The position numbers were made by a program, and so were the translations under genes. Below the pieces are notes generated by a model that searched no databases, was not told where the DNA came from, and worked only from the letters and a program-made list of their open reading frames with translations. This document shows, one piece after another, positions 2,793 to 51,063 of a DNA stretch of 64,000 nucleotides (position 1 is its first letter; each line of letters opens with the position of its first letter). Origin of the DNA: Halobacillus yeomjeoni. GTDB lineage: Bacteria; Bacillota; Bacilli; Bacillales; Halobacillaceae. The stretch covers positions 930,001 to 994,000 of the forward strand of contig NZ_JAIVAI010000001.1 of the NCBI RefSeq assembly GCF_020171525.1, in the 5' to 3' direction.

Positions 2793-3342
2793 GGCTCTGT
2801 TAAAGGGTGGTGTTGATATTTTAAATAATTATCAAATATCCCCAGTATGGGATTAGGTGTCCGGTCCGTTATTTACGCAGAGTATGGGATGGCAGAGAAA
2901 ACAGTCCGCTTTCCGCGGGGGACGCTTGAGCCTCATCGAACTTCGTTCTCCGGGGTCTCACCTTGTTCCTTTTTCCCGCAGGAGTCTACCTGTTTTCCCT
3001 GCCATCCCTTTCGTAGTTGGTGTAACGGACTTCGGTTATGGTCTTTCCGACCTACTACTTTGAGGAGGCTCACGGCACTCCACGGAAAGGGATTCATTCC
3101 CAAGGCCGCCTACACAAATTCTCGGACAGAAAGAGCTGATATGAGCTCACATGTAAAATAACAATACCAAGCAATTACAGAACCTTCGTAAAAAGATTGA
3201 AAACCAAAAGGTACGACATTCTATTTAAATGGTTTTCATTTGTAAATTAAACTTTTTAAATGAAAGTAAAGCATGGTTGAAGCAACTATTCACTCACAAA
3301 AGTCTCAAAACGAATAAATCAACACTAAACTTTAACAGAGCC
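2793..3342. mobile_element. Non-autonomous inserted element (MITE-like), copy A, composite
   Basis: The 550-bp element begins GGCTCTGTTAAAG and ends CTTTAACAGAGCC, an inverted repeat. Flanking octamers TTTAATTT (2785-2792) and TTTTATTT (3343-3350) match at 7 of 8 bases, consistent with a decayed 8-bp target duplication. It contains module 1 (2886-3008), half of module 2 (about 3056-3110) and a degenerate internal end at about 3183. A further 160-bp tail ends in the terminal sequence also seen at the right end of copy D. There is no transposase; the apparent ORFs inside simply read through the palindromes. Confidence 0.8.
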
Positions 3343-14547: not shown

Positions 14548-14595
14548 AACGACCTATCCCTTCTACGTTAGGGAGGATATAATATAAAAATAAAT

Positions 14596-14767
14596 AATCC
14601 TCCCAAATGGTTTTGGAAGGATTAGTCGAATCGCATTTATACTATAGTCCATACCTCATCAACGGCATGACTAAGCATCATATAGAAAAATGGGCAGACT
14701 AATCCTATGTTTTTTCAATCTGAAATATATGATTTCAAATAGTAAAAAAATAAGATTAGTTCTTCAT
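14596..14767 (-). promoter_or_regulatory. Transcription attenuator with micro-ORF controlling the ABC-F gene
   Basis: Four pairing segments are visible in the leader RNA (minus strand). Segment 1, ACTAATCTTAT (14750-14760), overlaps the stop of a micro-ORF encoding M-K-N (14756-14767). Segment 2, ATAGGATTAGTC (14697-14708), pairs with 1 or with segment 3, GACTAATCC (14619-14627). Segment 3 overlaps the 5' arm of a 12-bp terminator hairpin (14596-14623), followed by ATTTATTTTT. A ribosome stalled by drug on the micro-ORF would mask segment 1, let 2 pair with 3 and prevent termination. A second micro-ORF (M-G-G-Q) overlaps just upstream. The mechanism is inferred from the pairings. Confidence 0.8.
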
Positions 14768-14806
14768 TGTCCACCCATCATCCCTTTCTGTTTCAATTGT
14801 CTAAAA

Positions 14807-15227: not shown

Positions 15228-15690
15228 GGCTCTGTTATTGCTTGGTATTGTTATTTCACATGTGAGCTCATATCAGTTCTCTCCGTCCTGGGTTTTGTAT
15301 GAGGCGGCCTTTTAGAATGACTCCCTTTCCGTGGGGTACCGTGAGCCTCCTCAGGCTGCGCCTTCCGGGGTCTCACGATGTACCTTTATCCCACAGGAGT
15401 CTCGCCATTCTAAAAGGCCACCTCTTCAAAATAGGAGGGTCGGAAATTACCGAAGTCCGCTACACCAACTACGAACGGGATGGGAGGGGAAACAGGTAGA
15501 CTCCTGCGGGAAAAAGGAACAAGGTGTGACCCCGTAGAACGAAGTGCAAGGAGGCTGAAGCGTCCCCTGCGGAAAGCGGACTGTTTTCCCTGCCATCCCA
15601 TGCTCTGGATAAATAAAAGACCAGCTCCCCTATCCTTGACGGGGACTATTTACTAATCGTTTAAAATATCAACAAAACTTTAACAGAGCC
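15228..15690. mobile_element. Non-autonomous inserted element (MITE-like), copy B, with perfect 8-bp target duplication
   Basis: The 463-bp element runs from GGCTCTGTTATTG to AACTTTAACAGAGCC. Its flanks are perfect direct repeats ATTTCTTT at 15220-15227 and 15691-15698, proving insertion with 8-bp duplication. It has opposite orientation to copies A and C. Module 2 (15306-15419) is closed by a perfect GGCCTTTTAGAATG/CATTCTAAAAGGCC stem. Module 1 (15477-15599) has arms GGGATGG.../...CCATCCC with some mutations. No ORF resembling a transposase occurs. Confidence 0.92.
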
Positions 15691-27353: not shown

Positions 27354-27818
27354 TTACACCTTCCCCTTCATCCGGATTACTTTACCGTCTAGTTCTGATC
27401 CACAGTATTTCATTTGCATTTTTTTATAAAACTCCAACGCTCTTGAATTGTTCGGGGAAACTCTTAGATGGAATTCTTTCACGTGATGTTTTTGAAAAAA
27501 GTGCAAAGCATACTCGTGAAGCCTTACCCCAAGTCCCATCGACCGTTTTTCAGAAATCAAATAAAATAGATGCACATAACCAATTCTTTCACCTTCATGC
27601 ATCCTGATAGAACACTCGACTTGACCTATCAATCGGTTTTGGTCCCATACTCCGACAAAGCCATCTGGAAACTCTCTGACTTTACCTGCTATCCAAGTAA
27701 GGTATTCATTTTTATCAAATGAAGAGCAATCCCCGAAGCTTTCTATAAATGAGTTCCTCCTGAATTGAAGAATTCTATTCCGATCTCTCTTCAAATCGAT
27801 CGTATGAAATTCAAGCAT
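27354..27818 (-). CDS. GNAT-family N-acetyltransferase
   Basis: The 154-residue acetyltransferase has the acetyl-CoA loop in EKRSMGLGVRLHEYALHFF and the final strand of SPNNSRALEFYKKMQMKYCG. The usual R/Q-x-x-G-x-G reads RSMGLG, acceptable for the family. ATG 27818 is preferred, eight bases after AAAGGAG; the longer ORF starts at GTG 27824. Element C ends only five bases upstream of that ribosome site, so any promoter must be inside the element. Substrate unknown. Confidence 0.82.
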   Translation of the reverse strand: MLEFHTIDLKRDRNRILQFRRNSFIESFGDCSSFDKNEYLTWIAGKVREFPDGFVGVWDQNRLIGQVECSIRMHEGERIGYVHLFYLISEKRSMGLGVRLHEYALHFFQKHHVKEFHLRVSPNNSRALEFYKKMQMKYCGSELDGKVIRMKGKV

Positions 27819-27840
27819 GTGCACTTCTCCTTTATAAAAA

Positions 27841-28312
27841 GGCTCTGTTAAAGTCTGTAGTTGATATTTTAAACGATTACTAAATAGTCCCCGTCTGGAA
27901 TAGGTGTTCGGTCCGTTATTTATTCAGAGCATGGGATGGCAGGGAAAACAGTCCGCTTTCCGCGGGGAACGCTGAGCCTCCTCAAACTTCGTTCTCCGGG
28001 GTCTCACCTTGTTCCTTTTTCCCGCAGGAGTCTACCTGTTTTCCCTGCCATCCCGTTCGTAGTTGGTGTAACGCAACGGATTTCGGTTATGGCCTTTCTG
28101 ACTCTTCTACTTTGAAGAGGCGGCCTTTTAGAATGGCGAGACTCCTGTGGGATAAAGGTACATCGTGAGACCCCGGAAGGCGCAGCCTGAGGAGGCTCAC
28201 GGTACCCCACGGAAAGGGAGTCATTCCTAAGGCCGTCTCCTACAAATTCCAGGACAGAAAGAGATGATATGAGCTCACATGTAAAATAACAACACTAAGC
28301 AATAACAGGGCC
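27841..28312. mobile_element. Non-autonomous inserted element (MITE-like), copy C, with perfect 8-bp target duplication
   Basis: The 472-bp element runs from GGCTCTGTTAAAG to CAATAACAGGGCC. It is flanked by perfect direct repeats TATAAAAA at 27833-27840 and 28313-28320. This is the best preserved copy. Module 1 (27933-28054) has the perfect 19-bp arms GGGATGGCAGGGAAAACAG and complement. Module 2 (28122-28234) lies in opposite orientation with GGCC...GGCC arms. The ends of the element match those of copy B in reverse. No transposase is encoded. Confidence 0.92.
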
Positions 28313-28318
28313 TATAAA

Positions 28319-28356
28319 AAAAGCCCTTCGACTGGTAAAAGAGTCGATGGGCTTTT
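28319..28356 (-). terminator. Terminator after the 86-aa gene
   Basis: AAAAGCCC-t-TCGACT/AGTCGA-t-GGGCTTTT stem. Its T-run on the minus strand is provided by the target duplication of element C. Confidence 0.85.
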
Positions 28357-28361
28357 CATCA

Positions 28362-28622
28362 TCATTGTTGTTCCACTGGATCATCGAAAAGATCAGTGAA
28401 TTTAGCTACATTTTCATAACTGAATTCAAAGGCCATTCTCACTTCACCGAAGCTCGGCTGATAAAAATACCCTTGGACTTCATAACTGCTCTTATTTTCT
28501 CTCACTTTAGTCAAATGGAAGTACCTCTGTACATATTGGGCCATCTCTTCCAATTTCTTATTTCTTACTTTGATCCATTGTTGTTTGAGTTCTTCCGTCT
28601 CAAAATCTGATTCCTTTAACAT
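28362..28622 (-). CDS. Hypothetical protein, 86 aa
   Basis: Not recognised. The protein is charged and mostly helical at the start (ELKQQWIKVRNKKLEEMAQY), then shows a beta-like stretch (YEVQGYFYQPSFGEVRMAFE) and an acidic end. There is no signal peptide. The start ATG follows AGAGGAGTGAG with ideal spacing and the gene has its own terminator, both supporting expression. It lies between element C and a frameshifted gene. Confidence 0.68.
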   Translation of the reverse strand: MLKESDFETEELKQQWIKVRNKKLEEMAQYVQRYFHLTKVRENKSSYEVQGYFYQPSFGEVRMAFEFSYENVAKFTDLFDDPVEQQ

Positions 28623-50962: not shown

Positions 50963-51063
50963 CTGAATCTTTCGGTAACTGGCTGGCTTAGTGAGATGAC
51001 TCACCTTAGCCCCTGTAGCTTTGCGTCACAAGCTTTCACTTGCTCTGCCTTTTCGAGATTCAG
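50963..51063 (-). ncRNA. Cyclic di-GMP-I riboswitch (GEMM-I)
   Basis: The 101-nt element on the minus strand is closed by a perfect 8-bp P1 (CTGAATCT/AGATTCAG). The conserved core reads AAAAGGCAGAGCAA, then GTGACGCAAAGCTACAGGGG CTAAGG, then CCAGTTACCGA. These match the GEMM-I consensus landmarks (GxACGCAAAGC, GGCYTAA-like, GGTTACCG-like). The intrinsic terminator at 50863 is the apparent expression platform. It indicates that cyclic di-GMP controls Tad pilus transcription; whether binding turns it on or off is not determined. Confidence 0.9.

Follow-up and report, generated by a model that had tools for sequence, protein, structure and literature searches.

What are the two inverted hairpins that lie between genes at one locus of the Halobacillus yeomjeoni genome, how did they come to be there, and is their fold kept by selection as RNA or as DNA? 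We addressed these questions in a stretch of 64,000 nucleotides (positions 930,001 to 994,000 of contig NZ_JAIVAI010000001.1), called the window hereafter, and in related genomes. All coordinates refer to the window.

The two hairpin modules

A preliminary description had placed two inverted hairpin modules at 27933-28234. The modules are present there and fold far better than dinucleotide shuffles (z of -6.6 for module 1, -5.2 for module 2, and -10.1 for the whole), whereas the interval is too narrow as a unit, because the repeat spans 27841-28312 plus its flanking duplications. The core that the modules were said to share was recovered as two inverted copies with 78-nt arms and 81% complementarity. 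Its pattern, CTTTCCGCGGG..GAGCCTCCTC..GGGGTCTC..CCCGCAGGAGTC, matches three times in the window against none in 100 shuffles, and 73 times genome-wide against none for the reversed control. The reported inner-stem changes between the modules, GCGGG/CCCGC to GTGGG/CCCAC and GGAAC/GTTCC to GGTAC/GTACC, are also found in the sequence.

Module 1 (27933-28054, plus strand) is a type B hairpin with its conserved core at 27956-28033. GAGCCTCCTC is on the plus strand here, and the strand resembling the RNA tsr24 (see below) is the minus strand. Module 2 (28119-28238, minus strand) is a type A hairpin inverted with respect to module 1, with its core at 28139-28216, GAGCCTCCTC on the minus strand and the tsr24-like strand on the plus. 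Perfect pairing of the outer arms had been described for both modules and is true of module 1, whose arms (27933-27951 and 28036-28054) form a 19-bp perfect complement, but not of module 2 in the window copy. There, GGCCTTTTAGAATG requires CATTCTAAAAGGCC and the actual letters are CATTCCTAAGGCC, and the fold has an internal loop at this mismatch. Among the type A modules of the genome, 24 of 39 have outer arms with an exact complement of at least 14 nt and 15 do not. At three other loci (L015, L052, and L055), a type C core is joined to type B outer arms, as if by block exchange, and a single-hairpin element (L073) has non-matching arms from different subfamilies, suggesting recombination within the core.

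The modules lie inside a non-autonomous transposon

When copies within the genome were compared, conservation was seen to continue past both modules as far as GGCTCTGTTA-type ends. Both modules are therefore parts of a larger repeat unit, a 472-bp element at 27841-28312 with flanking 8-bp duplications. Its left terminal inverted repeat is GGCTCTGTTAAAGTCTGTAGTTGATAT (27841-27867, plus strand), with a similar end in other copies, and end comparison gave the right one as GGCCCTGTTATTGCTTAGTGTTGTT in inward reading (28288-28312, minus strand). The target duplication TATAAAAA is identical at 27833-27840 and 28313-28320. Genome-wide, the end pattern has 59 exact matches and its reversed form has none.

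Thirty-six elements with both ends were found among the fetched loci of the H. yeomjeoni genome; these loci (L001-L085) were picked by core or end matches and do not amount to a full census. All 8 flank bases are duplicated in 21 of the elements, 7 in five, 6 in five, 5 in three, and 3 in two. Flanks matching at 7 or more of the 8 positions thus occur in 26 of the 36, compared with 3.6% in mispaired controls. The target duplications are 92% A+T, and the elements are 274-577 bp long. A complete element has two oppositely oriented modules, which both belong to the hairpin superfamily described below. No listed ORF of at least 80 aa lies inside the window copy. The features expected of a MITE were all found: terminal inverted repeats, target-site duplication, and short length with no internal transposase gene. 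The 472-bp unit is a MITE, a non-autonomous transposon, whose ends partly resemble those of ISL3 elements, and the terminal repeats and 8-bp target duplications around the modules explain much of their spread by transposition.

The window holds further sequences with the same ends: an element at 15228-15690 with the exact 8-bp duplication ATTTCTTT, an element or remnant at 2793-3342 with parts of two end types, and a short deletion form from 43165 to about 43310.

The probable mobilizer

The end type GGCTCTGTTAAAG is that of the 472-bp element and would equally be that of any autonomous partner. At 24 of 31 ISL3 loci of the order, the paired ends are flanked by duplications that agree at 7 or 8 of 8 bases, and TGTTG occurs in at least one end in 19 of those 24; the pair at one locus (L257) looks doubtful. 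Examples of ISL3-family ends are GGCTCTATAATATTTGTTGGGG and GGCTCTTCGCTATTTAGTGTTGAA, with 8-bp duplications. One local element end, GGCTCTGTTAAAGTTTAGTGTTGATAT, has GGCTCT and TTTAGTGTTGA in common with an ISL3 end. The GGCTCT and TGTTG blocks are common to ISL3 ends and element ends, but their spacing differs, and GGCTCTGTTA ends were found at none of the 31 ISL3 loci. The element ends GGCTCTGTT resemble IS6-family ends as well; an IS6-family origin was rejected, as PF13610 had no matches in the genome.

The H. yeomjeoni genome has no match to the ISL3 transposase family PF01610, and in two close relatives (G305 and G308) the ends do not occur as pairs at IS distance. In the sample of 299 genomes, ISL3 and the core are negatively associated, the core being present in 37 of 112 ISL3-bearing genomes versus 124 of 187 without ISL3 (uncorrected for relatedness); a positive association of ISL3 with the hairpins was rejected. 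Because of these three results, the mobilizer is something we infer from the ends, and an ISL3-type transposase would be the likely one.

Genomic context and the sites in relatives

The gene adjoining the window copy (28362-28622) was matched in relatives, and 17 loci were inspected on the facing side. The composite 472-bp element is absent from the site in all 17. Fourteen have no core string within 500 bp. In the other three (L231, L232, and L234), the gap is occupied by superfamily hairpins of other subfamilies, lying 94-226 bp from the match, so not every relative has an empty gap. L231 and L234 have alike flanks and different, internally paired stems, as if the stems had been replaced blockwise at one site or the gap were a repeated target.

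At a second site (L049), at least 12 relatives match both flanks. Among the 12 matches listed, three (G301, G289, and G308) have a spacing within 40 bp of the joined-flank length, and the other nine exceed that length by 68 to about 700 bp. No superfamily string lies between the flanks in any of the seven relatives fetched, and the gaps have diverged too much for a single target copy to be read. The absence of the element from the relatives' sites, together with the 8-bp duplications, identifies it as a MITE.

Context was counted for 35 of the 36 elements, omitting one with poor ends (L039). By a simple ORF rule, all 35 sit between genes, at unrelated sites; 24 of the gaps are tandem, 6 divergent, and 5 convergent, which is near random. 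They face 36 gene starts and 34 gene ends. With no bias toward gene ends, nothing links the copies to any one gene. The window copy lies 16 bp upstream of the ORF start of a GNAT acetyltransferase (27354-27824, minus strand).

A hairpin superfamily across the order

The core is present in 161 of 299 sampled genomes and in 68 of 116 genera of the order, with a patchy distribution and 0 to 151 copies per sampled genome. A scan of named genomes gave at least 119 stretches with the core, and the genera among the matches listed include Bacillus, Neobacillus, Peribacillus, Rossellomorea, Halobacillus, Lysinibacillus, Sporosarcina, Pisciglobus, and others. A single Arthrobacter contig with the core may be contamination. 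These counts bear out the earlier remark that similar GC-rich hairpins occur between genes in many Bacillaceae. Two Halobacillus litoralis contigs (L107 and L113) have modules closely resembling types B and D. In a plasmid search we found only partial core matches, in four records of Priestia and Niallia. Among the publications listed as matches, neither titles nor abstract openings name the repeat.

The ends differ between lineages. Of 113 usable modules from other genera, 14 are framed by ends of the GGCTGTTTTCGC type, the GGCTGTGTTAAA type, or the like together with duplications of 7-8 bp, whereas none of 560 mispaired controls is. In the H. yeomjeoni genome, types C and E are without GGCTCTGTTA ends.

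Other sequences have entered the hairpins. An insertion element with ends ..ATGAACGAAACT.. occurs at a fixed point of the core (GAGCCTCCT / CTCGGAC or CTCGAAC), in two subfamilies. This end was seen in five of six contig ends inspected (L059, L066, L067, L069, and L071), always at the same core position, and these five contigs terminate inside the element. The end had no match in the plasmid search. IS110 was tried as the identity of this element and gave 0 matches to PF01548; the coding part lies outside the contigs read, so this result is not decisive. Six loci (L117, L126, L169, L172, L186, and L197) have another palindromic repeat, CGCACGAAG.AAATGCG.. or similar, inserted on the hairpin's 3' side following CCCGCAGGA. 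At two more (L122 and L196), the 3' half is interrupted by a sequence starting with CGGTCGAGTAAGCGGGA, a start that resembles group II intron ends.

Covariation and conservation of the fold

The set used for covariation comprised 154 modules that fit the full pattern (66 from the H. yeomjeoni genome, 2 from plasmids, and 86 from elsewhere); copies that did not fit were omitted. Outer arms paired with their own partners at -19.6 kcal/mol and with cross arms at -10.2 kcal/mol (29 thinned modules). The corresponding values were -7.0 and -4.2 for inner stems (33 thinned modules) and -4.7 and -2.3 for tips (38 thinned modules). In a permutation test of arm, inner stem, and tip pairing, none of 2000 permutations was as good. 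Among 28 thinned modules, paired cells made up 93.6% compared with 83.1% in shuffles, and double-changed cells numbered 79 compared with 27.5. The covariation score was 0.254, compared with 0.077 for shuffles and 0.028-0.069 with the partner slid. Two of the five measures were weaker: pairs with double changes (9 vs 7.4; 31/500 shuffles) and further pair types (26 vs 22; 17/500 shuffles). Covariation beyond the controls, as expected of a structured RNA, was therefore found with two of its five measures weak, and the covariation that had been noted within the single element extends significantly across the order against shuffles, slid partners, and cross arms.

Ranking by corrected mutual information placed largely nested stem pairs at the top, along with some unpaired columns, and several of the top stem pairs lie outside the structure supplied beforehand. 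Invariant core pairs were partly fixed by the search patterns and are uninformative either way. Overall, the stems are lineage-specific and still paired, and the core letters are fixed.

Within the genome, conservation follows the same parts. In the 20 complete two-module copies among the 36 elements, mean pairwise identity was 0.91 and 0.90 in the cores and 0.89 and 0.86 in the ends. The spacer between the left end and module 1 (27868-27932; 0.73), the linker between the modules (28055-28118; 0.74), and the spacer between module 2 and the right end (28239-28287; 0.77) are poorly conserved. The module cores thus do not decay like spacer DNA. The preliminary description had named two outcomes that would refute it, neutral decay and a lack of significant covariation, and the data show neither. 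Outer-arm identity was 0.96 and 0.84 for module 1 and 0.81 and 0.80 for module 2. In the module 1 outer arm, 344 of 356 cells are Watson-Crick pairs, and 10 double-change cells keep pairing versus 11 single-side changes.

From the covariation and the slowly changing cores, we infer that the hairpin fold is under selection. The proposal of selection on a folded RNA or DNA holds to this extent, and of the two, RNA is favored by several observations.

RNA or DNA

On the GAGCCTCCTC strand, inner stems contain 25 A.C against 6 G.T mismatches, compared with 295 to 631 in cross pairs. An A.C mismatch on this strand is a G.U pair on the other. The excess is not significant when distinct contexts alone are counted (7 to 2 vs 46 to 59, p 0.08), and in the outer arms it is weak (149 to 93 vs 2778 to 2287 cross pairs, p 0.04). 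Of 152 modules, only 28 (11 of 66 in the H. yeomjeoni genome and 17 of 86 in others) have GAGCCTCCTC on the strand predicted to fold more stably. If the fold is that of an RNA, both the A.C excess and the asymmetry in folding energy point toward the complement of GAGCCTCCTC as its strand, and both speak for RNA. GNRA tips were dropped as RNA evidence, as they were not clearly enriched (4 of 109 vs 1 of 109).

The RNAs tsr1 to tsr39 are described as identified in S. aureus USA300 (PMC7392542). The model of tsr24 (RF02577) matched module 2 of the window with 18.7 bits (E 0.039) and module 1 with 12.1 bits (E 2), both below its gathering score of 50. Among eight loci of other genera, the sole match at E 0.2 was L128 (24.7 bits, E 0.14). 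Both window matches, the L128 match, and a further one at G000:C2:341720 are on the strand complementary to GAGCCTCCTC. With 60 candidates scored per genome, matches at E 0.01 or below occurred in 9 of 22 genomes of the genus and in none of 14 control genomes, and the H. yeomjeoni genome has one match at E 0.01. The matches in the genus, not each of which is confirmed as a superfamily hairpin, reach at best 38.4 bits, so that none attains the gathering score. In three full-length matches, the core letters are similar. When the whole window was searched against Rfam at gathering scores, no family was found at the hairpin element. That search gave matches to the ncr1575 sRNA (14591-14799) and the c-di-GMP-I riboswitch (50971-51059), both on the minus strand.

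Judging from these sequence comparisons, the fold is most likely kept as RNA on the strand complementary to GAGCCTCCTC.

Proposed explanation and alternatives

With slightly more than even confidence, we favor a MITE moved by an ISL3-family transposase and carrying two covarying hairpins with a selected fold, most likely as RNA. The transposase would act in trans on the 472-bp element. A neighboring transcript would read through the element, and the complement of GAGCCTCCTC in one module would then form a stable ~120-nt hairpin containing a fixed internal motif. The folded hairpin could be bound or cut, by which neighboring genes would be shielded from the insertion. Alternatively, the hairpin could act as a free small RNA, as reported for tsr24 in S. 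aureus. A broader view, which we hold tentatively as a possibility of lesser weight, is that selection follows the hairpin core and not the transposon ends. The core would then be a structured RNA or single-strand DNA module of Bacillales and staphylococci (tsr24), with lineage-specific ends and a fixed-point target for IS elements.

The hairpins might instead act as DNA, extruded as a single strand or as a cruciform and recognized by a transposase or another enzyme, so that only folding copies are mobilized. The position of the modules inside a transposon would fit this, as would the modules without these ends (types C and E). The ..ATGAACGAAACT.. insertion element at the same core position in five of six contig ends, in two subfamilies, indicates that proteins can target the core sequence. 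Inverted repeats are also known IS targets, as reported for IS1272 (PMC5678879). The strand asymmetry in A.C over G.T and in folding energy is, however, unexpected for a DNA hairpin whose strands are equivalent, and we consider this reading rather unlikely. It is improbable in our view that the matching changes are mutational, with template switching or gene conversion between arms or copies repeatedly correcting imperfect palindromes. Long palindromes do undergo correction by such processes. The broken arm in 15 of the 39 type A modules, including the window copy, shows that breaks do occur, and some modules join the arms of one subfamily to the core of another, which means that copies exchange blocks. 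Yet correction should erase fixed core mismatches, and the extra A of CCCGCAGGAG, which the search patterns left free, is kept in 154 of 166 modules. The C.T mismatch GAGCCTCC/GGGGTCTC lies within the search pattern, hence its constancy is not evidence. The lower divergence of the cores than of the linker also speaks against correction. Bidirectional transcription terminators spread by the MITE would suit the very stable GC-rich hairpins and the T- or A-rich target duplications, but the outer hairpins have no directly adjoining T run. This terminator reading, highly improbable, was rejected on the near-random gene orientation around the 35 copies.

If the favored reading, with the fold kept as RNA, is correct, the hairpin would be a very abundant uncharacterized structured RNA module in Bacillales and may explain the origin of a staphylococcal sRNA. 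If it acts as DNA, the hairpin would be a landing pad and a possible mobility signal.

Comparison with known systems

The elements share repeated intergenic palindromes, inverted pairs, and insertions by other IS elements with REP and BIME sequences. REPs are given as 20-40 bp (PMC3733652). The modules described here, at ~120 bp, fall outside that range, and they belong to a larger element bounded by terminal repeats and flanked by 8-bp duplications; identity with REP elements was rejected on module length. Compared by description, Bhal-1, Sta-1, Sta-3, and Sta-4 are likewise stem-loop repeats, of B. halodurans and S. aureus, with lengths of 74-136 bp (PMC2267715). The bcr1-bcr18 repeats of the Bacillus cereus group, also likened by description, are intergenic and structured, and some are MITE-like (PMC3446304). 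The same source reports transcription of 84 of 165 and 62 of 155 bcr copies in two strains; a title cited in it calls bcr1 B. cereus group-specific.

The S. aureus sRNA tsr24 (RF02577) is alike in core letters, nested stems, and strand, with up to 38.4 bits in the genus. It differs in that every match stays below the gathering score of 50 and the outer parts align poorly. With ISL3-like MITEs, the elements share GGCTCT..TGTTG-like terminal repeats, 8-bp AT-rich duplications, and intergenic copies; the differences are a genome without an ISL3 gene and an interior made of a highly conserved, covarying hairpin superfamily that spans the order. Constraint in an ordinary MITE falls on the ends, with filler between them, whereas here the interior holds a fixed core and covarying stems across the order.
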